DNA of 64,000 nucleotides, taken from NCBI GenBank assembly GCA_004369045.1, contig ML213516.1, positions 651,271 to 715,270 on the forward strand, in the 5' to 3' direction. Each line of letters starts with the position of its first letter. Positions within the stretch are counted from its first letter, which is position 1. Positions 8,803-49,177 of the stretch are shown piece after piece. The position numbers and the translations under genes are program-made. A model generated the notes under the pieces. The model made no database searches and was not told the DNA's origin. It worked only from the letters and a program-made list of their open reading frames with translations. The stretch is from Heliocybe sulcata (lineage: Eukaryota; Basidiomycota; Agaricomycetes; Gloeophyllales; Gloeophyllaceae).

Positions 8803-11126
8803 TCACCCCCCGTTCTAGGTCGCGGCGACCACGACGCGAAAAGAAGAAAGGAAAATAAGAAAGAGAAGAAGTATTTACAGAGACCGTTTGAAAAAGAAAT
8901 AAAAGGAAAAGTATTAAAATGACCGTAGAAAAGAATAAATTAAAGCACACCATTTGTCCCCACATCTCCACCATCCATCGGCCACTTAACCATCACCCGC
9001 GAGAGTGCTGCAAAGGCGACCGCGTTGACTCGTCTTGGAGCAGAAGGGTGTTGCTGATGGAACTTGGCAACTTCCTTCGGTGCATGGTCCAAGAACTCCG
9101 CCGGCTCCCAGGTGTTTTCCTCAGGCCCATACCCCTTCCATTTGACAAGGTATTGAAGCTTGCGATAGTGGAAACAGCTATCGACAACCTTCTCCACCTC
9201 GTGCTCGACCTGGTTGTCCACCACCACAGGATCAGGTGGGGGTGGGCGAAGGCGGCCAGAGATCGGGTCGGGTAGAGCCTGGTCGAGCTTGACCACCGGG
9301 AACACAGGATGAAGCCGCTTCATAGAGGGCGGCAGCTTCAACCGGTACGCGTTGCGTCCAACTTCCTTCTCCACGACATAGGGTCCCCACCACTTATGTC
9401 CGAGCTTCCGCGAGGGGCGAGTCGTCCGGATGTCAGACGAGTCGAGCCAGACCTTGTCTCCAGGGCGATAAGTAGGCGCAGGAGTACAGCGTTGGTTGTA
9501 GTACCGCATATACTCCTCCTTCGCCTTCTCAATCGCAGCCCTGGCCTCAGTCAAGCCAGCATCCATACGTGCCTTAAAGTCGTTGACTGACTCCAAGGAT
9601 GATGGTTGCTGGTGAGGCTCAAAACCCATGCGCGGATGTCGCCCAGTATCAACCATGAAGGGCATCTGCTGGGTGGAAACGTGGAGGTGGTTGTTGTACG
9701 CAAACTCACCCATAGGCAGCAGCTGGTCCCAGTCATCCTGACGCTCACTCACGAAGAGCCTGAGGAAGCCCTCTAACTCCTGGTTCACCCGCTCCGTCTG
9801 ACCATCGCTCTGAGGGTGGTAAGCAGTGGAGTTGCTAACCTTGATCCCCAAGAGGCGATACAGCTCACGTGTGAAGTCCGCGGCGAACTGCGGACCACGG
9901 TCAGACAGGACATCGGAGGGGAGTCCATGGTGCTTCCAAACCTCGCGCAAGAACAGGCGCGCAGATCCTTCAGCGTCAAGAGTTGTGTGGGTCAGGATGA
10001 AGTGGGCGCGCTTGGAGAGGAGGTCGACGACCACCATCACCGCATCGTAGCCATGTGCTTCAGGCAGCTCGACAATGAAGTCAACGCTAACCTTACTCCA
10101 GCGCTCCAGTGGAGTCTCCGTAGGAACCAACTCGCCGACAGGTGGGCGGCATCACACCTTGGTGCGCAGGCAGAGGTCGCAATGTCTCGTATATTCCCCA
10201 ATAAAACGAGACATCTGCGGCCACCAGTAGTTCCGAGACACCAGCTCCAGCGTCTTGAAACGTCCTGGGTGCCCAGCAATCACCGAGTCGTGGTGTTGCT
10301 CGACGATCCGGTGGCGCAGGTCGTGCGTCGGAGGGACATAGATCCGACCACGGAAATAGAGAAGCCCCTGCCTCTCATCCCACTCGCGACTACGCACTGA
10401 ATGTTCGCCAGACTTATGCAGCTCAAGGACAGCCTTCGCAATAGGTTCCTCCAGCTCGTCATGCCTGACTGCAAACCGGATGTCGCGGAGGACCTCAGAC
10501 TCGGCACCCACTGCGGTGAGACCAGAGAGGGCGGCAATGACAAAGGACTCTGGCTTCAGAACAACGACATTGTCATTGTCAGCAGCCCCATCGCCATGAT
10601 CTGGACGCCGAGAGAGTGCATCGGGCTTACCCATGGAAGTGCCTGGCTGGTGGTGGAGGGAGTAGTCGAACCTGGCGAGGAAGAGCGCCCATCGTGCTTG
10701 ACGACGGTTGACTTTCTGAGCGCTCTTGAAGTACTCCAGGTTCTTGTGGTCCGTCCAGATCTCGACAGGGTGCTTGGCGCCTTCAAGGAAATGTCGCCAC
10801 TCAAGGACGCGCACAATTGCCAACAGCTCCTTGTCGTAGATCTTGTAGTTCCGCTCCACAGCACTAAGGCTCTTGGAGTAGAAGGCCACGGGATGCCACT
10901 TGCCATCTTCCTCTGACTCCTGCTCGAGCACGCCACCAGTCGCAAAGTCTGAGCTGTCAGCCAAGACGCGGAAAGGACGATTGTTGTCAGGGAGGGCGAG
11001 AACAGGAGCGGAGGTGATCAGCTTCTTCAAGAGGTTGAAGGAAGCTTGCTCCATCTCACCCCAGGAGAACTTCACAGCGGCGCGCATAAGGTCGAAGAGA
11101 GGGCGCGCATGCCTCGAGAAGTCCTT

Positions 11127-11152
11127 CATCAGGGAAAATATATATTACTTCA
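11127..11152 (+). repeat. Left terminal inverted repeat of the 4.5-kb transposon
   Basis: Begins CATCAGGGAAAAT and ends TTACTTCA. It pairs with the reverse complement of 15600-15625 with four mismatches. Confidence 0.75.
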
Positions 11153-13872
11153 AAGGTCCTAGGGAACTTTGAAGTCCTGAAAGTCCCCATAGTACCTAGA
11201 GTAACTAAAGACAACCCCCCTTTTCTAAAGTAACTTGAGGTATGCCATTTTGTGCTGCTGGTCTTTGAAGTCCTTCTGATCCCAGCTGAAGTACCCGAAG
11301 TTGCTGACTGCTTTTATCTCATTATTCCTCTTTTCTAGCTTCTCTCAGGTATCATTCAGAATGGAAAGAGGATTTATTAGATTACTGGTACTACTACTAC
11401 ACTATATAATGATGTGAACACAATCCATTATCTCCCTTCCAGTCCCTAGCACCCACCGGTGAGCTCCAACATCTCCACCTCCAGCCTGCTGGCAAGATGA
11501 GTCAATGCTTGTACATCTTGAAAAACAGCGCAGCACATACCTGTCATGGCACCCAGGCTAGTTGGCTCAATTCGGCAGACTGATAGTCCATCATACCTGC
11601 AGGAGGTGTTCGAACTTGGTGATGACATGGGGCGGTGGCGGGGCGTCGATCCATATCGTAATCGCGTACTGACCAAAGGAGGTTGACCTGCGAGCGATGA
11701 CGTCTCCGCAGCAAACAGTCGTCGACGTGCGGGCATTGGCACAGCGCATAACAACATCGCCTTGTAAGTCCAAGTCAGCCTGGCACACCTCGCAGCCATC
11801 AAGACGAACAGTACTCACATGCCAGCGCAAAGTCCACGGCAAACGCAAGTCGGCTCCCGTGAGACAAGCACACGAGGCTGGCTCGCGCAGACCCGCGCTG
11901 GCGATGTGTCCGTGAAACAGGAAGTCGCCGAGGATGACTTGTCGGAAAAGAGAAGCAGCACGTTCACCCGCCCGTGAGATGCGGTGTTGCGTACCTCGAT
12001 GCAAAGAATGTTCCTTGTCGGATGAAGATCCATATAGACATCTTCGCCAAGGTGGGAGAGGCCACTGCACGGACGCCGGTCATCGTTCATGCCACCGACA
12101 CGCGAGGGACGAACCCTAGTGCTCGTCAACCCATCCAGAACCCGACGTACGTCGGCGTAGGATCTGCTCGCAGAGCAGAAACAGCCCCCCTCGTCGCGCC
12201 GCCTGCAAACAGCCTTGAGGTGTCTACAACCCAAAGCCCGAGGGTGTGATGCAGCACGCCTCGCCACCACGCCCCGCGATGCTGAGCTGCACGACGACGC
12301 TCGCCGGACGGCGATACATCCCTATATCGTCCGTCAAGCCGCCAGCGAGACCATGAAGCGAGACATTGACTGTGTCGAAACAGTTGAGAGGCGAAATGTC
12401 CGTCTAGCATCCTTCGAGACGTCGCTGGCGGGGCGTCGATCCATATCGTAATCGCGCACCGACCAAAGGAGGATGATCCGCGAGCGATGATGTCGCTCGT
12501 GGGACGTCAATCTGTATAGTAGTCGTGTATTGCTGAACACCACGCGAGAGGGAGGAAAGACAGGTGACATCCCTCGCGGGACGTCAATCTGTATAGTAGT
12601 CATGCACCGCTGTTCAGGTGAGAGAGAGGAAGACACGCGACGTATAGTAATTGCGCACCGCTGTCAAGGAGAAACTGCCGGCGAGAGATGGAACCCACGG
12701 CATCCCTATATGTTGTTCACAGAGTTCCCAGTAAGGCAGAGGGGAGAGACAGCGGGTTGCAAAGCCGCGTAGACGACGGCAAGGAGAGGAGGACGCGCGA
12801 CGGCATCACGCGGGTGCTTGCAGAGAAGGACCGTTCGATGTCGGAAGGGCGTACCATGGCGGGCGGAAGGCCCAGGACCACAAGTACCGCTTGGGAGGCT
12901 CGATCCTCTATCCAACGCGGGAGGTCACAGGAGACCTCGGAGAAATTTGCATCGGCCACGAGACGGGCGTATTCGAACAGACGGAGGACCTAACAGTCCT
13001 GTGTCTCGTTCGCGAGGAACGATTGCTTCTGGGAGCCAGTGATCGTAGTCGAAACGTGACGAGGAGATGCGAGACTTGTGATGGCGGCCATGTCTCGGGG
13101 AGATATCACCTGCACAATAGAACGAGAAATAAGTCAGCTGTTCTTAGAGCAAATTTGGAAAACATACCATAGCGCGTTCGCCCAGACACTGTCACGGGAA
13201 GTTCCCGTGGAGGTACTCCAGACCACGCTGTCGACGAGGAGAATGGTGAGGATGCGCTTGCAGATGAAGATGGTGTTGAAAGAGAGGCCAAGTCTGGAAA
13301 CTCGAACTTTGGCTTACGCAGTCGTGGGAAAGATTGCACATGGCGGCAGCGATTCTCACATTTCGCTAAGTCCATCAAGCAGACGCCTGTCAGCGCAAGC
13401 AGGGACAAAATCCCTCCACAGCCTCTCGAGCATCAGGATACAGTCTTGCTCTCACAACCGTGACTATACACCTTGCACCTCTCAATATCTGACTATGCGG
13501 CATACCGGACTAGCAAGATTTTAGTCGAAGTGCGCATTATCAGTGGAACGGCGTATTGAGCGGGAGCCTGCCGGCAATGTGCAGTAGACATGCAGGTGAG
13601 ACTCCAAGCTTCTTAGAGTCAACGGGAGTCAGCTAATGCACGTCCTGTGGTGCTAGCGGGGCCCTTACCCAGATTTCCCAACCGAAACCAGCTGCGCCGG
13701 TCAAGACCCACACGGTCATCGACAAATCCCCCATCCTCCTCTAGTGCTCCGACAAGTGCAGGATGAGGGACACTAGCAACCTCAGTGGCGTGTTTGCCTA
13801 CAATCATAGCCCCGGGCACTCCTCCCTCCCCATGCCCCCTGTCCCACACACCTCTTTCAGTGAGTATCGCCA
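11153..13872. other. Transposon cargo of unknown origin, no gene supported
   Basis: About 2.7 kb of mixed, fairly GC-rich sequence. Open frames on both strands are short, overlapping and lack family motifs. A repeated module covers part of it (see 11631-12690). A minus-strand frame around 11591-11700 reads like a fragment of a coding exon (AITIWIDAPPPPHVITKFEHLL) but I cannot name it. It may be debris of other captured host sequence. Confidence 0.4.
11631..12690 (+). repeat. Degenerate tandem/dispersed repeat GGGCGTCGATCCATATCGTA
   Basis: A core of about 25 bases (GGGCGTCGATCCATATCGTA followed by ATCGCG) occurs near 11638 and 12432. Weaker copies GGGACGTCAATCTGTATAG lie near 12499 and 12576, and a trimmed copy near 12637. 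From 12430 onward the spacing is about 60-77 bases, which suggests a decaying minisatellite. The surrounding text ACCAAAGGAGG...GCGAGCGATGA is shared by the first two copies. Confidence 0.6.
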
Positions 13873-15437
13873 CCTTCCTATTCGACACTATCTACAACTT
13901 TGGTGAGCTCGTGCGTCTCAGTTCTCAAGATTTTGCTAAGTCCGAGTCGCTCTCGTTAATGGCGCCTACCACAGTGCATATCTCGAGGGAGCTACGGAGA
14001 AGTTGTGCAGCGAGGACTCGGCGGGGGAGGAGCTTTGGAAAGGAGAAGATTTGGGAATTTCGGTCTATCACATGAGAGACGGTACGTTGCATTCATTCGG
14101 CGCTCACATCTTTCTCATGTAGTCTATAGGCAGCGATCTTCACCAGAGCGAGTCGATCACGAAGTCCCTGTGCGACCAGATCTTTGCGAAGCCTATCCAC
14201 TGGAGTGTTGCTACCAGTTTCCCGGACACTGCGATGCACGCGGTCGACTCCGGTCCCGGTGGTTTGAGCGGTATTGGCCCGCTTACTGCGCGCAATTTGG
14301 AGGGAAGAGGTGTTAGGGTAATTGTGCTGGGTGAGAAGGGGGACCGCGTAGCGGAGTTGTATCATACGAAGAATGTCAAGTATGAGGACTGGTGGAGCAC
14401 CAAGTGGGCGCCAGCTCTTGTCAAGACGAGGTACGCCCGGTAGCGCATTCTTGGAACTCTAGCTAACTGAGGTGATATCTAGCGATGGTCAAATCCACCT
14501 CGACACGCCGTTCTCCCGTCTTCTCGGCAAGCCGCCAATCATGGTGGCTGGGATGACGCCCACTACGGTCAAGGCAGGCTTCGTCAGTGTGGTTCTCTCT
14601 GCGGGTTACCACATCGAACTCGCCGGTGGAGGACACTACAACGCGAACGCCCTCCGAGCCAAGGTTGCTGAGATTCAGGCGAAGATCCCTGCCGGAGTCG
14701 GTATCATGCTGAACTCGCTCTATATCAACCCGCGCCAGTTCAACTTCCAGTACCCCTTATGGCAGGAGATGCGCAAGGAGGGTCTCCCTGTCAAGGGTTT
14801 CTGCGTCGCCGCTGGTATTCCCTCCACGGAGAAGGCCGCTGAGATCATTGGCGGTCTCAAGGAGGCGGGTATCAAGCATATCTCATTCAAGCCCGGCTCC
14901 GTAGACGTCATCCGACAGGTTGTCAACATCGCAGCGGCGAACCCCGACTTCCCAATTATCATGCAGTGGACAGGGGGACGCGTGGGTGGCCATCACTCGT
15001 GCGAGGACTGCCACCAGCCCATGCTCGCTGCATACGGCTCCATTCGCAAGCACGAGAAAATCATTTTCGTCAGCGGTTCTGGATTCGGCGGAGCTGACGA
15101 CATCTGGCCGTACCTTACCGGTGACTGGTCATTGGCTTACGGTGTCCAGCCCATGCCTTATGACGGCTTCCTATTTGCGTCTCGCGTCATGGTCGCAGAG
15201 GAGGCGCATACGAGCTCGTCCGTCAAGGACCTCATTGTGGCGGCATCTGGTGTTGACGACGCGCAGTGGGAAGGTACTTACACGAAGGAGACCGGCGGTA
15301 TCCTTACTGTTCGCTCGGAGCTCGTCGAACCCATCCACAAGATCGCCAACCGCAGTGTCAAGTTGTGGAAGGAGTTTGACGATACCGTGTTCAACTTGCC
15401 GAAGGAGAAGCGCATTACGTGGTTGAAGGAGCACTAT
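13873..15437 (+). pseudogene. Captured fatty acid synthase fragment (enoyl reductase region)
   Basis: The conceptual product matches the enoyl-reductase region of fungal type-I fatty acid synthase and the linker before it. Visible stretches are MAPTTV, LGISVYHMRDG, DSGPGGLSGIGPLTARNLEG, PPIMVAGMTPTTVKAGFVS, IELAGGGHYNANALRAK, MQWTGGRVGGHHSCEDCHQP and SGSGFGGADDIWPYLTG. Two introns are kept, 14082-14129 (48 bases) and 14431-14482 (52 bases), so the copy came from genomic DNA and not from mRNA. It lacks the gene's start, acetyltransferase core, dehydratase and malonyl/palmitoyl transferase. One base appears to be missing near 13974 (after MAPTTV). The similarity stops abruptly after WLKEH at about 15437, where transposon end sequence begins. 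The downstream frame is otherwise open for over 300 codons, so capture looks recent. Confidence 0.88.
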
Positions 15438-15599
15438 TGTAGCAGAATTGTAGTTATGTCCATAGATAAAACAATTCATTAATACTTCAGCATTTGAAGA
15501 CCTATCGCTACTTTTGGTACTTCAGAGTAGTCTAGAGTAAAATGCAGTCTTTGGGGTTGATATTACATAGCTTCTAACTTTAAAGTACTGAAAGCCGGC

Positions 15600-15625
15600 T
15601 GAAGTAATTTTGATTTTTCCTGATG
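15600..15625 (-). repeat. Right terminal inverted repeat of the 4.5-kb transposon
   Basis: Reverse complement begins CATCAGGAAAAAT and ends TTACTTCA; partner of 11127-11152. Confidence 0.75.
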
Positions 15626-16642
15626 TTGATGAACCGGCGATAGAAGTTGATGAACCCCAGGAATGAGGACACCTCCTTCTTGTCCTTGGGCGTCGGCCAA
15701 TCTGTCACTCCCGCAACCTTGACCGGATCCATCTTCACACAGTTGTGAGAGATGATCACGCCCAAGTACTCAACCTCCGTCTTCTCAAACTCGCACTTGT
15801 CCGCACGCAAGTAGAGCTTGTTCTGACGCAACCGATCCAGCACAATACGAGTGATCCGACGATGCTCTTCGACGTCCTTGGTGAAGATGAGGATGTCGTC
15901 AAGATAGATGCAGACCGAGCCTTCCATAATGAGGTCGTGGAAGATGTCATTCATCATTGTCTGGAATGTCGCCGGGCTGTTGGTCAGACCAAAGTACATG
16001 ACGAGCGGTTCAAAGAGACCGCGGTTGGTACAGAAAGCCGCCTTCCACTCATCGCCGTCCTTGATCCGGACATTGTTGAAGCCCCAGCAAACATCGAGCT
16101 TGGTGAAGTACTTCGCACCTCACAGGCGGTTGATGAGGTCACTGATGAGAGGGAGAGGGTACCGGTTCTTCACCGTCATGGCGTTCAGCTTGTGGTAGTC
16201 CTGGACGAAGCGAAGGCCGCCATCCTTCTTCTTGACGAAGAAGACGGGGGAGGCGATGGGAGACTTGGAAGGTTGGATACGTCCTGTTGCCAGGTTCTCT
16301 TCCAGGAATTCGTCGAGTGCAACTTGTTTGACTGGAGAGAGCGGGTAGACCTTGGACTTGAACAGCTCCACGTCTGGGGTGAGCTCGATCGCATGGTCCC
16401 AGCGCTTGCAACCTGGCAGGGTGTCGAAGGACTCCTTCTTGAAGACGTCCCGGAACTCGAAGAACCGCTCAGGGAGGCCATCTGAGGGATCGCGGATGGT
16501 ATTCTTCGCATGGGCTTCCGCAAGGCGCTGTGAGACAGTCGAAGTTGCCTGGATGAACTCCTCCTCGGGTGCAAGGGTGGTGACGAAGATGCGGTCACCT
16601 TCCTCCAAGACTTCCTCGTCCATACCATACTCAGTAGGCAGG

Positions 16643-39331: not shown

Positions 39332-41037
39332 GTTTTCGCATTGCCCTACCGGCACATTTGCGACGCCGGTACAATGGACAAGACTTACATATTTCTTTCC
39401 AGCACAAGATGTCCTCATCAACATCGGATCTTTTGTTCTCGCCGGTGTAACCGCCTCCTTTACTCTGGGTGCCATGTTATCCCAACTGCGGCCATACACC
39501 TTGGCCGGTTTCACTCCTTCGTGAGCGATATGCCCTGTCCTTCTGCATTCGATTCTTGACATAGGTGTTCCAGATCATTTTCATGGCATCCTCGCTACCT
39601 ATTACTTACAGCTGTCCTTCCGGCGGTAGCTTCTGTTGTGTATATAGCTGTCCTCCTTCGACTTGATGCCGTCGTTCCCATGGATGACCTGCAATGCGAG
39701 GCCACTCGTCCTATCTGGTAAGCGGCCTCGATGATTCCTCGTAGTGCAGAGATTAATGTATCTGAAACAACAGGGTCCGCTTGCTGGGCTATGCCGGCGT
39801 CCCTTTGCTGTTGTCCATCCCCAATCTGGTTGCCTCGTCCTTCCTGGCCTTTCGGATGATTCAGAAGCAAGGGATCCCCAGTCGACTCGAGTCCAATAGC
39901 AGGGGATGCAGCTATATACGACAAAACACCATGGATGGTCTTACGCCCCTCCCGATACGAAGACATTCTCGGCGGAGCAAGTCCCTGGAATTCCGGGCGA
40001 GCGCCGAGGTCCGCAACGAGAATACGCCGACTCCTACAGCCTCACAACTGGCAGTAGCCACCCCTATTGCTATACCCTCGCCTACATCTTCCGCTGTCTT
40101 TTCTAGTCCCCACCTGCTTCAGTCTCCGGGCCGGATTCCTACCAGCCCAGAGGTGGCTTCATTCGCCAACAAGTATCACCTGCCATTCAATCGTCGGCCC
40201 AGGCAGTCACCGTCCCCCGACCTTCGCCCGGCCTCGCGCACTCGTTCATCCGCTTACTTCCCGTCCGATACGTCGATCTCGTCCGTGTTCCCTACGTTCG
40301 CACCCCCATCTCGTTCCGGCAGTGTCAAAAGCTCGGTCAAGTCTCTCCCTGCATTTCCAGATCATCTCGACGCCCTGCACTACAACGGCGTATCGAGTAG
40401 AGACAATGAACCTGAACTCAGCTTAATCAAGATGGTGTCTTCCACTGCTGTTGGAGGCGATGCGGAGAGCGAGTTGCGATGGGCGAGGCGTTTCTCAATG
40501 TCCAAGTCCGAACTGGAGTTCGTTAGAGACATAGAAGCCGAGAATGGGACTGAAGAGTCCTATGAGCCGACGTATGTTCGGCGTAATCCGTTGAGTAGTG
40601 CGTCATTGTCGGCTTTTCTCCGCTTGATTCTGTTGATCGGACTGTTTGTCTTCCTTGCCAGACATGATGCGCGACAAGACGACTCCGCCCCCTGTGACCA
40701 CTCCGCCTGTTCTCGGGCATATCGTCATATTTCAGATGTGAGTGCATCCGCGTTGGACACTTCTTGGGTGACGCTCACGGCGTCCGCAGCGTTCTATCTA
40801 TTGTCCAAATTCTGGCCTCGATTACGACTTTGGTTGATGTTGCAAAGCGACGAACTATTCCTACGTCCTTCGGAACGCAGCACTTTGCGCTGCTGCTGGC
40901 AGCCTGGTGTCCTTGTTTTATCTTCGGTAAAGCATCACGCGTCTCCCCAAGTGCATCAGCTAACCGGCAGGAATACAGGTTCGATACCAGGCGTCCGGCA
41001 ACGCCTCATGTTTTGGAAGCGTCGTCGATTCTCATGA
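39332..41037 (+). CDS. Fungal multi-pass membrane protein, first exon unresolved
   Basis: Supported exons are a first one ending at 39520, then 39565-39717, 39774-40643, 40790-40926 and 40979-41037, all in phase. The first exon's start is not fixed; 39332 follows a plausible acceptor and there is no ATG in that frame before the first membrane segment. Hydrophobic segments are INIGSFVLAGVTASFTLGAML, YLLLTAVLPAVASVVYIAVLL, LLGYAGVPLLLSIPNLVASS, LILLIGLVLSIVQILASITTL and HFALLLAAWCPCFIFG. Between the third and fourth is a long Ser/Pro-rich cytosolic-type loop of about 250 residues. The C-terminus is basic (RLMFWKRRRFS). The arrangement is like fungal seven-helix receptors with a long third loop, but no receptor family is recognised. 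Confidence 0.6.
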
Positions 41038-41474
41038 CGCGCTCTGCTCCGTCGATTCCTTATCGCTTTCTTGTATAAATGTTGCTCGTGCTTGGATACC
41101 CTCACACACTCCCTTGTCTAGCGAAATCTTGCTTGCAGGATCAGCAGTGTATTGCTGTGTATTAGCATACTCAGGTGTATTACCATAGGATTATCTGTAA
41201 TGGAGGTAACTAATTTATGTTTATATCTGTTCAACAATCTCCGAGTGCTAGAACAAATATGAGTCGTGAAGGCAACTCTAGCTAAGCGGTAGGAGCCTCG
41301 ACGGAAGCTGCCGCGCCGGATCCTGCTCTTTCCTCTTTCCATTCATCTACCACTGCCGCTATACCCACCACGACACAGAGAGCTGGCTTCTTTCACGACT
41401 GAATCCTTAACGTATATTGCTTTGATTCCTTCTTTCTACTCTCTTTTCACTGGCGGCAGAGGCAGATCCGAGTT
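41038..41474. other. Intergenic, upstream of the Tao3/Mor2 gene
   Basis: 437 bases between tandem genes. A CT-rich stretch precedes the start codon at 41475. Nothing else recognised. Confidence 0.45.
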
Positions 41475-44400
41475 ATGAGCTTTGAGGATGTACAGATCAC
41501 TATCCCGGGTGCGTGTACGCACGAATTATAGGTGTTCATGACACTGAATAGTCTCAAGATCTTGACGATGACGCGCTGTACTCTACTCCGATTCCTTTCG
41601 GAAGGGCGCCTGGAGGCAGTGGCTTTGGTTATGGCGGGTCTGGCTCGGGGCAGGAATCGCCAACTGCATTGACACCTTTGGCTCTTCCCGAGCGAGCGGA
41701 TAAGGGCTACTTTCATTCCCGCAATGACTCTGCAGCATCCGAAGATTCGGCCCAGTCTTTCACTACGCGCTATACCGCGAATAGCAAAACGTCGACTGGG
41801 TTTGGGCACTCTGCGTCGGCATCCATCACCACGACGAATACAAGCACCTCCTTCACCAAGAAGCCATCTTTTGCTTCCATCCGAAATGCATTCAAGAGTG
41901 GCAAGTCCACGGAGCCGCCTCCAGTCCCGGCTCTTGACCGGGATGCTTACCCGGTCCTAAAGAATCCATTCAACCGATCGAATTCGTCCCTCGCGCACGC
42001 TGCTCCTCTTCCTAGACGACCTAGCGCTGTCGCCATTGTGAGTCCTTCGCAAGGACGTCCGCCAACACCTGGCACCGACGGAAGATCTCGCGGAACAAAG
42101 TCGAAAGGTCACGCACCTGCTCGGTCTCAGCACTCGCACACTGGGTCAGTGTTTCACAGTTCTGATACAGGCAGTGATCTTGGACATGGCTACTACCCTT
42201 CTTCCTCCCCGCCCCCAATGCCGCCAATGCCGGACATGTTTGGCGGCCAACCATCGCGTGACGGAACCCCCCCTCTGGACTATGAAGACAACATCGTCAT
42301 AGAACCTCGTACCCCTGCTGAATACGCTCTGCACGCCATCTTCATCCGTTTCGTCACATCTGCGGAATCCAAGATAGAGGCATTTCTGAAGCAACCGCTG
42401 GTGCGCCAATTACTGTCGTCACTAGACGCTGATAGCTGAATGCAAGCCGTTATCATCCCTTGGATTGCTGACCATACCAGGATCACGACCCAATGCTCGA
42501 AGACTCAATGGGACCTGGCATCGATCCGAAGTTCGATGACCTCCTGAACTCACTGGGCAAGCTGGCTCACAAGAACGCTAAACCAGTCATCGACTCAATC
42601 ATGCGCTGGCGACGCAGCCAGAATGCAGGTGAAGTCAGCTCCGACGTCATGCGGTCGCACCTGTCGCAGTCTCCTTCCGCCGGCCGAGGGGTGAAGCCGC
42701 AAGATAGCAGATATATCATTGCTGAGCGGAAATCCCTGGCTTCAGTGTACATCATGTGCCGTGCCCTCATAGCTGTCATGCAGTCTGTATCCAAGGATGC
42801 ACTAGGGGATGCAATCGGATACGAACTGGAAGATGTAACTTTCGAACAGTTTAAGACGCCATACTTGAAATTACTCAGTCAGTCTGGCAACCACCGGACA
42901 AATGCAGAGTTGTATGCTACTTTGCTAGGGCTGATCGCCAATGTCAGGTGCGACATTCCATTGTATGTTTCATCTGGCCTAGCTGTTCCTAAAATTTCGG
43001 TAGGTTCGACAGCGTGACGGACAAGTTTCTGAACGAATTGCAACCAGTCGCTGCTGGTCAAGTAGCAAAAGACCTTGATATGAAGTACGAAAGCTTGGTC
43101 AAGGGCTTGAGATACGTGCAGATCAAGGTGAGGTGAACTGGATAATCTTGTACGCGGTTGGGGAGAAAACGTCAACTTATAATCCTCCGCTGCAGGTCTG
43201 GCCTCCCGAAGCCTTTGAGGAGGGTGCCGAGTTCTTCGAGTCTCTGTCAAAATCGTTCGCCAACGCCCACGGGTTTCGTTTGAAGTCTGCTTTTGCGGAA
43301 ACGCTTGTGCAGATACTGCATCCCATCGGTAAGGTATGGCTACTCTTTTGTCGTCATCTTAATGATGCGAGCGTTAATACCACCGACTCTAGACTGCTCA
43401 AGCGGAAGTGAATCACCCCGAGTGGGCGAAGGCAATCGAGGTCATTTATCCTAGGGCCAGGGATATGACGAGCAAGCCGCGGTATTGGCACGCGGCATAC
43501 CCGCTGCTTATCACAAGTCTGTGTGTGGCCCCTCAGGATTACTTTCTCCGGAATTGGATGCCTTGCTTTGAGGCTGGTCTTGCAAAGCTCAAGGTAGATA
43601 CTTTATCCCTTCGCTTTCCTCTACAATGACTGATCTGAGTAACGTGGCACAGGATAAACCGCATCGCTCCGCAGCAATGAACGGATCTATAAGGCTCATC
43701 TGGACGTATCTCTATCGATGTTATGAGCCGGCGTCCACGGCAACATCCAAGCTTGACGGGCTGCTCAAGCATTTTTTTCCGCCCAATCGTCAAACGTTGT
43801 TCCCACAAGACGATCATCTCGAACCATTCATCTACATGCTCCACTTTGTGCTGTCCCGGCACTTCGATTTTGGCGCGGAGTTTTGTCTGGAGCTGATGCA
43901 GGAACAGACCGTCAACGGTTCCTCGACGACCAACATTAGCAGTGTGCTGTCTCCGGAAAGGCTCGCCATCAGCGTCAAGGCGTTGCTGCTCTCTCTTCAT
44001 CTCATCGAAAGAGAAGAGAGGGCACCCTCGTGGCCAACCAGTCCAGAGTTCTCAACCTTTTCTTATGCGGCTGATTATACCGCATCGTCAGGCTTTCTTC
44101 CTGAAGCGGTGCTGCAGAAGCCCGGTGTGCAAGACGTCTTGGATCGGTATTCGACTGTCCTGGCGCGCATAGCGGAGATCAGTGCGAATGCGATCATCCA
44201 GATGTCAGTCCTGGACGATCAGTGGTCCGCTAATCGTTTGACGGCGGCCTACGAGGAGTCACACAACTACGTGCTGCATCGGCATCCGGAGGGCATTGTG
44301 GCCTATCCGCATTCGTATATCCCTCAAATTGGCTACCTCCAGACCTGCTTTGAGTCTTGGCCGCGATGTCTCGCCTCCACCTTGACTGTTGATGATGCGC

Positions 44401-47400
44401 TGGATATGCTTATACGGGGTCTCGTACACGTGGACCCCAGTCTCGCTGACGCTGCCGCCGGCGCATTGCATCGGTTCATGGAGAGTGATCAGCATGCCCT
44501 TTCGGTGTTGATACGATTCTCCAAGTTCCTCTTCGGTCCGCACTGCATATCGCAAGAAGGATCCGGTGTGAAGCTAACAATCGAGAGCACCAAGCTCCTC
44601 GGTACTTGGGCACGCCTGGTTGATAGGTGGATTCAGAGTCTCCAGCAAAAATCTGCAGACGATCTTGCCGAAAAGGCCGCGGGTGTCATGGTTGTTGTGG
44701 ATGAGCTCGAAGCCGGCTCTCTCTTCCTCCTCACGCATGTGGAGCGAGAGCTTCGTACTACTGGAGTCGAAGTTCTGCGTGCATTGCGGCTGCTCGTTGA
44801 CCGGATGGTTGCAAAATCGTCTTCCGGAGAAGCCCAGCCCCCTACCCCGGCTGCCTCGGGGCTATTGCATCTCTTCTACGACGGACAGCTGAACAAGTCT
44901 TATCTAGATGGATATGACGATCTCATCAATAGGGAGGAAGATCTTGACCGATTGAGGCAGTGGCGACAGTCCCAGCGGGCTGATATTCCGCTACGGATAG
45001 CTGACAGTACGGATGGCAGGGACTATGCCATTTGGGAGCATGCATATGCTGCAGTTATACGCCTCGGATCAAGCAGGCATGAGCAAGTGGTTGCAAGGCT
45101 TCGCGAAGCGGTAGTGGCTGCAGCGTCGCGCTATCACCCTTTAATGGCGGCTATTGCGGGAATTAACAGCCGAGCAACGCCAGGGCTGCCTACACGTAAT
45201 CAATCCGGAGGGGAAAAGGAAGGCGCCAAGCTGGTCCTCGACAACATGAACCACATCAAGCAGTGGCGTATGTGGGTGAGAATTCTCTGCTCAACGGCAG
45301 CCGCGGATACCCGTACTGCTGTGGTCAATCGAGAACATGCCAGAGTACCGTCCGAGGCCAACTTTGACCGGGAACGGATGACGACTACTCGCGGTCTGTT
45401 TCGCTTACTTGCTCCATTCCTAGATTCCGAGCACACAGTTTTCCGAGACGCAGCTGTCCTATCTATCAGTACTTTCCCTTCGGAAGGTTATTCCCAGTTA
45501 CTCGATGATCTGAATAATCTCGCTGCACGACAATTCTACGACGATCGGTTCAAGTCGAATGCTCCCCTTGCACCTTCCCGCACGCGGAGACAGGAACGAT
45601 TTTATGCTGCGGTGGCACGAATATACTACCTTACGGCACACCTGATTTTGGATCAGCGCGCTGCAGCCAGGCAGCCAGCCCTGTCCAATATTCTCAAATT
45701 CGTGCGACACACTCAAGCATTCCTGACTAGCCCAGAGTCGCGCGACAAGTACATGCTTCAGCGTCTCCGGCGCTACTTCTGTGGGACAGTGGAGAGACTA
45801 TTCGATGGCATGGCTACTCTGAAGGACTCCGATCGGTTCGTGCCTTATCGAATGCATCTGTATCTGTACCGGCTCTGTGAAGAGTGGTGTCAGCTCGGGC
45901 CACAATCGGAGAGTGTCAGACAGCGATTGATTTATATGCAGAAATCTGCGTCGGATCTCAACGACCCGCAGAAACAAGCTGAAGGGGTAAGACGGTTCCA
46001 GACTGAGACGAAGAAACTCTCGAAAGCCGCCATCGGCGCTATGGCATCAGTATGCGTGCGTATCAGCTTCCCCTGCTTTCTGATCTCTATATGAACCAAG
46101 TTTCTCGTACAGGCAAAGGCGTTCTTTCCTCCTGAAATTTCTTCCGGGTCGCCCACGGATAATCCTATGCAGGAGCCTGTAAAGTCTCTTGACGCGGCTT
46201 CGACGTTAGAACGCTGGACGTTCATCCTGGCATCTTTCGATCCCTCCGATCAGTCACACGCAAAGTATGCGCTTTTCTAATCTCTGGTTCACCTCATAAT
46301 GACGGTTGGTGTAGAAAGGCCCTGCGTTCGCTACTAGCTCACCCAGCACAGGATACAACGCTTATGGAAGAGGCTTTACGACGAGCCGTTGTGCTTTCAA
46401 AGGATCTTGACACCAGCAATAGCCGCTTTTTCGAGGTAGTGGCAGGCGTCATCTGCTCGGCTTCCAGACACGGTTTCGCGTTCAGTCAGATCATATGGCT
46501 GGGTTTAGCCAATCTATGCCATCATCTCGTTGAGATCCGGCGGTGGGCTCTTAAGGTGCTTGAAACTGCTCACGAGCAGTCTGCTGGCCTTCCCTCCCTG
46601 GATCGGTTTCAAGCGGCTGTGGGCAGTTCGGCTCCGAGCACATATCTTCAGGCTCATCGTCTCATCTCTGACCTTCTGGCTGGCGAGCATCCCCAGTATG
46701 CATGCCAGGTCCTCAGCCAATTTGTTACCTGGATGCCTCAGGTACTGGAGGGTGCTACCGGCAAGGCGCATCTTCTTTTGCTACAAAGTCTGGAGTACTG
46801 GATATCAAATATTGACCTCATGCCCGATGACAAGACTCACCTCTCTCCTGACGGTCGAGCTGCTCTCTACAACTTGATATCTCTCACGACGCGCTATGCC
46901 GACACCCACTCGGAGCAAGTACTGACCTTATGGACTCGCCTTGTCGACACTCCACATCAGCACAATGGGCATGCGACGATCAGGTTCCTGCTGGAACAAT
47001 CACATAAGGTTGGGAGCAGTATCTTCGTCAGCTGCGCCAGTAAAGTGGTCGCATGTCTGTCCCAGAGTGTCGTAGGTCGCCAAGTCTTCGAGGATATATG
47101 TGATCTCGTAGAGCCGGCACGGATGCTACCTACCCTTGAACACAAGCTCGTGATACCCTCGCAGGACGAACTAGAGCTATGGTCGGACCTGGACACCCTT
47201 TTCTCTTCGCAACCCCGACTGTCTCTCGCCTCCGGCCAATACGCATTGCTTTTCCTTGCTGATGTTGCCTTGGAGCGCGAATGGGAAGAACAAGCCCAGT
47301 TGCCACGATTACTTCATGCGTTATTCATACACGTTGATCATCGATCCCCTTTTGTGCGACAGCGAGCAAGGTACATGCTATTTCAACTGCTACGGACATG

Positions 47401-49177
47401 GATACCAGGTTACGAAGAGCTCCCTGACCGTTCTGAATATCGTGACCGAGATGCCATCCGATGTGATATAGCCAACCTTGAGCGGAGCTCTGAGGCAATC
47501 TTTTGGCGTGATGACGAGCCCGGGGCTCAATCGGAACCAAAGATGAGGGCCCTGAGTGGCGCGGTCATAGCACTCCTTGAACCACTTCGTCCGGGCTTGG
47601 CCGACGAATGGGGCTCACTTGCTCTGTTCTGGGGCACCGGCTGTGCCATCCGAGCTCTCGCATTCCGTTCGTTGCAAGTGTTCCGGGCATTGATGCCAAG
47701 TGTTAGCAAAGCCGATCTGGGACGGTTACTAGGACGTTTGTCCAGTACCATCGCGGATGAAGACGACGGTATACAAAAATTCACGGCGGACCTTGTTCTC
47801 ACATTGAGCGCTATTTCTAAAGCCGACCATTTCGAGTGGTCCTCTTTGCCGCAGCTATTTTGGGGCGCATATGCATGTCTCTCCACAACAGTCGAGCGCG
47901 AATATCATCAAGCCCTCCTCCTGTTGGAATCGCTGCTCAAGAAGGTGAATCTGGACGACAAAGAGACTTCCGTGTTCATCACATCCCACCGACCTAGGGA
48001 TTGGTCTGGAGCTGCTACCTTACAGGCGTCACTACTTACTGGTCTGCGATCCTCCGTGACATCTGATTTGGCTTTCTCTATCCTGCAGACCCTTGCAGGC
48101 ATCGACGACGGAGAACTGATTGATCCATCGGAAGGACGGGTTAGGGACCTTTACACTGCGTCTCTGCCTTGGCTCCTACAGGCAAAAGCGGCTGAAGCAT
48201 ACGGCGAAACGCTCGTACAATTTGCGATGGACGTCTCTCGTCTGGCTGAGAAAGAGGGGAAGCGTAGCATCAGTCGTATATTGGATTCCTTCGCCAATCG
48301 CCGCTTCCGCACAACGGAAGACTTCCTCCGACAGTCTGTTGCTAGTCTCCGGGAACATTACGGTGTGCAACACTGGACTGAAGTTGTCACTTTGCTTCTT
48401 GGACTGACTTTAAACAGCCAACGCTGGCTTCGTGTCCATTCGATTCAGATTTTAAAGGTCCTATTCCAGCAGAGGGAGACGCGACATCCCGTTGATCGCC
48501 TTGGCTCAGAACTACTAATGCCTCTGTTAAGACTCTTGGAGACTGATCTTGCACCCGAGGCGCTGGGCGTCTTGGAAGAGCCAATGACAATTTCAGGAGG
48601 ACCTCCAGCAAAACATGTTCTTCGGATGAGCATGAACATGAAAACACTCCGTGACCAGGCGGACGTCACGGACGTCTTTGGCATTCCACACGAGTCGGGC
48701 TGGTGTGTAGCTCGACCTACTCTTGCCCAACAAATCTGCCGCGCCAACGTCATGGCTGTCTATGACACATGCAAAGTACCCGACCGACCATCACGTATTG
48801 ACTTCCAGCCGGAAGAAATGGAGGCGTTTGCCGACCGACCGGAAAATAATCTGGGCGAGTTGGTACAGAACCTCCACGAACTGAGCATGTTCTTCCAGGA
48901 TGAAGATTCGGAAGAGCGTGACGGCACGCGAGACCCTCTTCCAACTCGGCAAGTCGAGGCTCGAGTAGCTGCTATTCTGGCTAAGTCCACGGACAGTGAC
49001 ACTGACGGCCCTCAGACGCCCTTCGTGGACGTATTCGATATCAGTGATCTCGCTGCTTCTTACGGGGATTCAGACGAGGATTCGGGAACGGACTCTGAAT
49101 CGGATGCTTTCGTTTTTGACTCTTTGGAACAATTGTCTCTCTCTCGGAGTAATTCTCTCAATGGGTTCTATCGTTAA
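41475..49177 (+). CDS. Cell morphogenesis protein, Furry/Tao3/Mor2 (PAG1) family
   Basis: Very large HEAT/ARM-type scaffold of the NDR-kinase (RAM/MOR) pathway, which controls polarised growth and septation. I read nine exons: 41475-41508, 41559-42436, 42481-42947, 43004-43127, 43196-43333, 43393-43593, 43653-46049, 46113-46264 and 46315-49177, giving about 2400 residues. The N-terminal third is Ser/Pro-rich. The conserved core starts at YALHAIFIRFVTSAESKIEAFL and continues with LLNSLGKLAHKNAKPVIDSIMRWRRSQ, WAKAIEVIYPRARDMTSKPRYWHAAYPLL and AAMNGSIRLIWTYLYRCYE, all typical of this family. The C-terminus is acidic (SYGDSDEDSGTDSES). All junctions are canonical and in phase except that between exons 2 and 3, where no GT donor fits (see findings). 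It converges with MLH1, 165 bases between stops. Confidence 0.9.

Follow-up and report, generated by a model that had tools for sequence, protein, structure and literature searches.

How does a DNA transposon that lacks a transposase come to carry pieces of several unlinked host genes? The question is raised by a 4.5-kb insertion in the basidiomycete Heliocybe sulcata (assembly GCA_004369045.1), lying within a 64,000-nucleotide stretch of contig ML213516.1 (positions 651,271 to 715,270 of the forward strand) that is referred to below as the window; contigs of the assembly are designated C1, C2 and so on. The element went in as a single block and contains copies, made at the DNA level, of several host genes that are unlinked. 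Its left half recurs in a second mobile copy with different cargo, and gene-carrying relatives encode a Plavaka transposase. We consider it highly probable that the window element is a non-autonomous Pack-type transposon, PlavakaB-like, whose genes were acquired by DNA-level filling of internal breaks.

Insertion site and ends

The element occupies positions 11127-15625 (4499 bp, exact boundaries) and has 26-bp terminal inverted repeats (TIRs) that agree at 22 positions out of 26. By our own reading of the sequence, its host appears to be the reverse-transcriptase region of a Ty3/gypsy copy. When 400 bp from the left and 400 bp from the right of the element were run against the genome, at least 15 other gypsy copies were found in which the two flank matches lie back to back. 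Among the matches listed, the right flank match begins at 15626 in 15 of 15 sites, the left one stops at 11126 or 3 bases beyond in all 15, and the overlap of the flanks in the target is 2 bp at 11 sites and 5 bp at the other 4. Matches are incomplete at two of these sites: the left one covers 45 bp at C20:490867, and the right one covers 66 bp at C21:177244. Since the flank matches abut with a 2-bp overlap at other gypsy copies, an empty site exists and the target-site duplication (TSD) is TT.

Seven occurrences of the motif TGAAGT/ACTTCA fall in the outer 450 bp, where 0.32 would be expected; none of 2000 mononucleotide shuffles reached this count, and the 4049-bp middle lacks the motif. The genome holds 39 stretches matching PF18759 (Plavaka transposase), several per locus, and none of them falls within 11127-15625. 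An initial annotation of the window had proposed a 4.5-kb insertion with imperfect 26-base inverted ends, a TT duplication, subterminal regions rich in this motif and no transposase, and on all these points it is borne out.

Cargo of the window element

Five pieces of cargo, amounting to 1856 of the 4499 bp, were traced to four host genes (Table 1): RPB1, represented by two pieces whose donor stretches lie ~900 bp apart in the same gene; an unnamed gene on C7, whose 354-aa donor frame gave no match in a Pfam search; the proteasome-lid gene Rpn9/PSMD13, whose piece directly abuts that of the unnamed gene; and the beta subunit of fatty acid synthase (FAS). All of them (FAS 1482, C7 gene 178, RPB1 76 and 58, Rpn9 62 bp) are longer than 50 bp and match host coding genes at E <1e-5, as do the fragments by which Pack-TYPE elements are recognized, and the combination of TIRs and a TSD with no transposase is likewise that of a Pack-TYPE element. 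The captured FAS piece of the initial annotation is thus real, but the cargo is not FAS alone, comprising at least five pieces of four genes; the four further pieces, the second copy and the transposase-bearing relatives had gone unnoticed there.

The FAS piece differs from C13:157204-158685 at 72 of 1482 positions, and both of its introns (48 and 52 bp) are kept, with 45/48 and 49/52 bases identical to the donor. Capture therefore took place at the DNA level, as had been argued in the initial annotation from about 1.5 kb of FAS with two introns; introns are also kept in the P-type ATPase cargo of the second copy. That annotation had further left room for a one-off repair insertion, should the same ends occur nowhere else and the FAS gene of this strain end at the same points. 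The resident C13 gene extends past both ends of the captured piece, with FAS domains on each side, and this reading is rejected.

The captured piece reads through 460 codons with no stop. Relative to the resident gene its divergence (NG86) is 0.027 at nonsynonymous sites (dN) and 0.132 at synonymous sites (dS), giving dN/dS ~0.2, and 41 of the 66 exon differences are at third positions. Neutral decay of a resident FAS copy was simulated in 2000 runs for each of the CpG shares 0, 0.3 and 0.65; 27 or fewer amino-acid changes were reached in 0, 0 and 1 of the 2000 copies, respectively. Because the amino-acid changes are too few for neutral decay, the two sequences probably acquired most of their differences as working genes, and the donor was probably another allele or a relative's gene rather than the assembled allele. 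That the piece is instead maintained by selection as a working coding sequence is very improbable. The stop-free frame and the low dN/dS are what selection would leave, but the piece corresponds only to an internal part of the resident gene, divergence before capture explains the pattern equally well, and the predominance of CpG changes between element copies is expected of silenced repeats.

Table 1. Features of the window element and its flanks (window positions)
Feature	Position	Strand	Remarks
Left flank, presumed host Ty3/gypsy reverse-transcriptase region	10727..11126	-	part of empty-site query
TT target-site duplication, left copy	11125..11126		flank-match overlap at empty gypsy sites
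Left TIR, CATCAGGG..TTCA, PlavakaB-like	11127..11152	+	22/26 match to right end; C2 copy has identical sequence
Left subterminal region with TGAAGT/ACTTCA motifs	11127..11376		246/250 identical to C2 copy
RPB1 (RNA polymerase II largest subunit) piece a, 76 bp	11501..11576	- (antisense)	92% to C1:3383635-3383710
5-bp filler joining the two RPB1 pieces	11577..11581		sequence reading
RPB1 piece b, 58 bp	11582..11639	- (antisense)	91% to C1:3384612-3384668
Stretch common to C2 copy (97%), with no other genome match; internal 48-72 bp repeats	11640..13359		genome search
Stretch with no traced origin	13360..13684		begins exactly at divergence point from C2 copy
Piece of unnamed host gene (354-aa open frame), 178 bp	13685..13862	+	84% to C7:785137-785314
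Rpn9/PSMD13 proteasome-lid gene piece, 62 bp	13863..13924	+	89% to C11:816761-816821; PF22037, PF01399 in donor
28-bp filler with no traced origin, between Rpn9 and FAS pieces	13925..13952		sequence reading
FAS subunit beta piece, 1482 bp	13953..15434	+	95% to C13:157204-158685; PF08354 2.8e-71
Retained FAS intron 1, 48 bp	14082..14129	+	45/48 identical
Retained FAS intron 2, 52 bp	14431..14482	+	49/52 identical
Right subterminal region	15426..15625		last 50 bp 84% like end of C5 Plavaka element; last 60 bp 45/60 like C2 copy
Right TIR	15600..15625	-	pairs with left TIR
TT target-site duplication, right copy	15626..15627		flank-match overlap at empty gypsy sites
Right flank, presumed host Ty3/gypsy reverse-transcriptase region	15626..16025	-	part of empty-site query

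The direct repeats of 48-72 bp in the untraced stretch shared with the C2 copy lie at 11633-11704, 12423-12494 and 12488-12672, the best two being 90% alike. A 14-bp repeat at 13360 and 13930, beside two junctions, was dropped, being near chance level by a rough estimate.

A second copy with other cargo

A second complete copy lies at C2:292608-296756 (4149 bp, TSD CT). It shares the left 2.2 kb with the window element at 97% identity, with 66 substitutions over 2232 aligned positions and one 67-bp indel; 45 of the 66 substitutions are changes of CpG to TpG/CpA, which suggests cytosine methylation of these repeats. Its right half holds different cargo. One piece comes from a gene family on C4, with 84-87% identity to four loci. 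Another 1077 bp match a P-type ATPase gene that we take to encode the plasma-membrane H+-ATPase; here identity is 85%, the introns align with the donor, in which PF00122/PF00690 are found, and the copy has a stop codon that the donor lacks. C11 is matched more weakly (73 and 83%). The left ends of the two elements agree at 246 of 250 positions and the right ends at 45 of 60. The same left half combined with other cargo and another right end suggests that halves have been exchanged between elements. No PF18759 match was found in the C2 copy, so that both it and the window element are non-autonomous. Several copies with different cargo are a mark of Pack-TYPE elements, and the initial annotation had named them as the support to be sought for a capturing family; the C2 copy supplies this, and similar ends recur on transposase-bearing elements.

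A tRNA gene suspected by eye at the C2 insertion site was not found by ARAGORN under bacterial settings. Elsewhere in the genome, C11:18358-62705, near the contig start, contains a cluster of P-type ATPase loci together with other matches to the C2 cargo, and an interval of ~31 kb (C4:778807-809429) holds the four C4 family loci.

Transposase-bearing relatives and their host genes

A search with the end pattern returned 21 matches, 8 with 0-1 mismatch and 13 with 3, against 6 in all for the reversed control pattern; the 8 close matches, the C27 pair and C32:62499 were used, and the other 10 were dropped. Ends similar to those of the window element delimit C5:585985-601735 (15,751 bp, TSD CA) and C27:416-20424 (20,009 bp, TSD CT), both of which contain PF18759 (2.5e-81 and 1.1e-110, respectively). 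All four elements with both ends located (window, C2, C5 and C27) have CATCA..TGATG ends, a 2-bp TSD (TT, CT, CA and CT, in that order) and pieces of host genes; for elements on C37 and C19 one end was located, and both stand outside these counts. The published features of PlavakaB are 5'-CATCA..TGATG-3' termini and a TSD of 2 or 3 bp, and Plavaka is placed with CACTA/EnSpm in the same CMCT clade (PMC12730594). As the window element has the PlavakaB ends and TSD, and its C5 and C27 relatives the transposase, it is described here as PlavakaB-like.

At a point where only 59 bp are present in the related C37 element, the C5 element contains a block of 3270 bp from a LIM gene; the block consists of three collinear parts with 85, 94 and 90% identity to the LIM-domain gene C5:1079972-1082668 (C17 matches at 75%). 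The C27 element carries the glucan synthase gene FKS1 (92% to C6; PF02364, 2.4e-166), the match continuing through an intron. It also holds a gene from C8, at 89-92% identity, and one from C14, at 93-95%, for an ion channel (PF07885), presumably a K+ channel. The FKS1 and C8 cargo is shared with a sister copy on C32. Since the C5 and C27 elements carry genes alongside a transposase, capture need not follow transposase loss. Donors thus lie on C1, C7, C11 and C13 for the window element, on C4 for the C2 copy, on C5 and C17 for LIM, on C6 for FKS1, and on C8 and C14. Of 10 frames compared with Pfam, 7 gave no match, one of them from the C4 family and six from the C5 element; of 7 frames in the C27 block, 4 likewise gave none.

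The sister of the 20-kb C27 element spans C32:47237-62524, no PF18759 match is listed on C32, and a gypsy copy (C32:44523-45323) lies near the expected place of the right part. In the C37 Plavaka element, a 1.6-kb block inside the left end (C37:28544-30132) has no other match in the genome over the 1431 bp searched, and an 8-kb block with open frames (C37 ~39533-47725) is absent from the C5 element.

A capture seen before and after

The C27 and C32 sisters preserve, in one genome, a capture in its earlier and later states. FKS1 is unbroken between GACCT and CAC(A/G)CAG in C32 and in the resident gene; at the same point C27 holds a 2200-bp insert (C27:10415-12614), with CT doubled and zero FKS1 bases lost. 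The insertion in C27 is the derived state, because the resident FKS1 and the C32 sister agree. The insert corresponds to the ion-channel gene C14:355048-357656 in two collinear pieces, with 473 bp of the donor skipped and 47 bp unmapped. Such an insert is expected if an internal break was filled by copying an unlinked template, and not if DNA between neighbouring elements was captured. A nested PlavakaA was considered for it on account of the 2-bp duplication and a TGT start, but the matching ACA end is missing.

Skips within a donor recur among the elements. By alignment coordinates the adjoining pieces overlap by 3 bp in LIM, 13 bp in FKS1, 5 bp in the ion channel and 2 bp at one C8 skip; in RPB1 and at the second C8 skip they are separated by 5-bp gaps instead.

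Discussion

It is proposed that the window element would be moved by a Plavaka transposase supplied in trans and cutting the CATCA..TGATG ends, a step suggested by the similarity of end sequence only. A break or stalled fork inside the element may have been filled by copying unlinked gene DNA, with the template jumping along and between donors during filling. The ends of the element would remain intact, leaving a product still able to move, and later exchange between elements could have joined one left half to different right halves and right ends.

Several observations weigh against this account. Only 1856 of the 4499 bp can be traced to host genes, and the 1.7 kb common to the C2 copy, together with the adjoining 0.3 kb, has no other match in the genome. 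Internal filling by itself leaves the different right ends (45/60) unexplained. Where junction letters were read (window and C2 elements, C27 insertion point), they give microhomology of 0-2 bp, with fillers 5 and 28 bp long. When read raw in six frames, the transposase matches are interrupted by stops (one in C5, two in C27), which may be introns or decay and leave a source active today no more than putative. The placement within Plavaka is drawn from ends, TSDs and PF18759 profile matches, and the mobility of these elements is read from their sequences.

Other origins have to be set beside the filling of internal breaks. In hybrid-end capture, proposed for plant Pack-CACTA (PMC13317346), aberrant excision strips two neighbouring elements of the ends that face each other, and the remaining outer ends mobilise the DNA between them. 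The near-identical left ends and dissimilar right ends suggest a right end taken over from a different element, and hybrid-end capture may account for these swapped right ends. As the source of the cargo it is doubtful, given that the pieces trace to different contigs, some being only 58-76 bp long, and do not form one contiguous interval, and that the C27 ion-channel piece was placed inside pre-existing cargo. It is also conceivable, if rather unlikely, that elements or cargo originated in a different species, or else in a deeply diverged haplotype, and arrived via crossing or horizontal transfer. The low dN against dS in FAS, which neutral decay rarely produces, speaks for a foreign source, as do the shared 1.7 kb and the 1.43-kb C37 block that match nothing elsewhere in the assembly. 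Yet every identified donor has a match in this genome, at 73-95%, and another haplotype suffices: allelic divergence of several per cent is possible in basidiomycete populations, and sequence may be missing from the assembly.

A one-off repair insertion or an assembly accident resembling a transposon would agree with the patchwork cargo and its fillers, but its chances are negligible; it is refuted by the second complete copy with its own TSD, by exact empty sites in at least 15 gypsy copies and by transposase-bearing relatives with similar ends. A Helitron is rejected too, since Helitrons have neither TIRs nor a TSD, and both are present here. Transcript capture, which would leave retrocopies, has a fungal precedent in the histone H3 genes of hAT elements (PMC6710886) and is next to impossible here: the introns retained in the FAS and P-type ATPase cargo refute a processed retrocopy for both. 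The filling of internal breaks in a PlavakaB-like element thus remains our preferred explanation. It is intriguing, albeit speculative and in our judgement improbable, to extend it to Plavaka of this lineage as habitual gene collectors, with or without a transposase of their own, that combine internal gap filling from unlinked genes with the swapping of halves and whose patchworks are moved between haplotypes or species; if true, Plavaka would shuffle genes in mushrooms much as Pack-MULEs do in rice.

Relation to known systems

In a literature search with most subscription papers outside its scope, no report was found of Plavaka with ordinary host-gene fragments, nor of a fungal TIR element with DNA-level capture of several genes; the accessible portions of PMC10853768, PMC8290104 and PMC9674265 contain nothing on gene capture by Plavaka. 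PlavakaB of Agaricomycotina (Kojima 2025, PMC12730594) has the same CATCA..TGATG ends and 2-bp TSD, and the PF18759 transposase is that of the relatives described here. It was described for TET/JBP genes, and ordinary host-gene fragments as Plavaka cargo are not mentioned in the portion of that paper available; alpha-kinase genes are reported there as carried by another transposon group.

Among fungi, the histone H3 hAT elements of Pyrenophora and Pseudocercospora (PMC3538342, PMC6710886) are also TIR transposons with a host gene. They differ in holding a single gene, in belonging to the hAT type and in the absence of introns in Pseudocercospora, and both are described as transcript capture (PMC6710886). 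The statement of the initial annotation that transduplication is little described in fungi accordingly needs tempering in view of these precedents, which are themselves described as capture of transcripts. The Helitrons of Pleurotus are likewise basidiomycete DNA transposons with extra genes, but they are rolling-circle elements, whose captured genes are of unknown origin and function according to the available text (PMC4289320).

Outside fungi, the Pack-TYPE elements of plants (Pack-CACTA, Pack-MULE; PMC8903248, PMC13317346) are likewise non-autonomous TIR elements with captured coding fragments; unlike them, the elements described here have a fungal host and transposase-bearing relatives that carry genes, and the mode seen in them is internal insertion rather than capture between neighbouring elements. 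For the Pack-TIRs of animals (PMC8277862), internal capture by template switching (gap-filling/FoSTeST) has been proposed, and multicopy cases spread by transposition; of the animal captures, 59.8% come from the same chromosome and 56.9% from within 15 kb, whereas here genes from different contigs meet in one element. How TIR transposons pick up unlinked gene pieces is considered an open question in a 2026 review (PMC13317346). The finding extends Pack-type capture to a transposon group and a kingdom new to it, the gene-copying habit itself being well known in plants, and Plavaka would thereby join the groups that reshuffle host exons.

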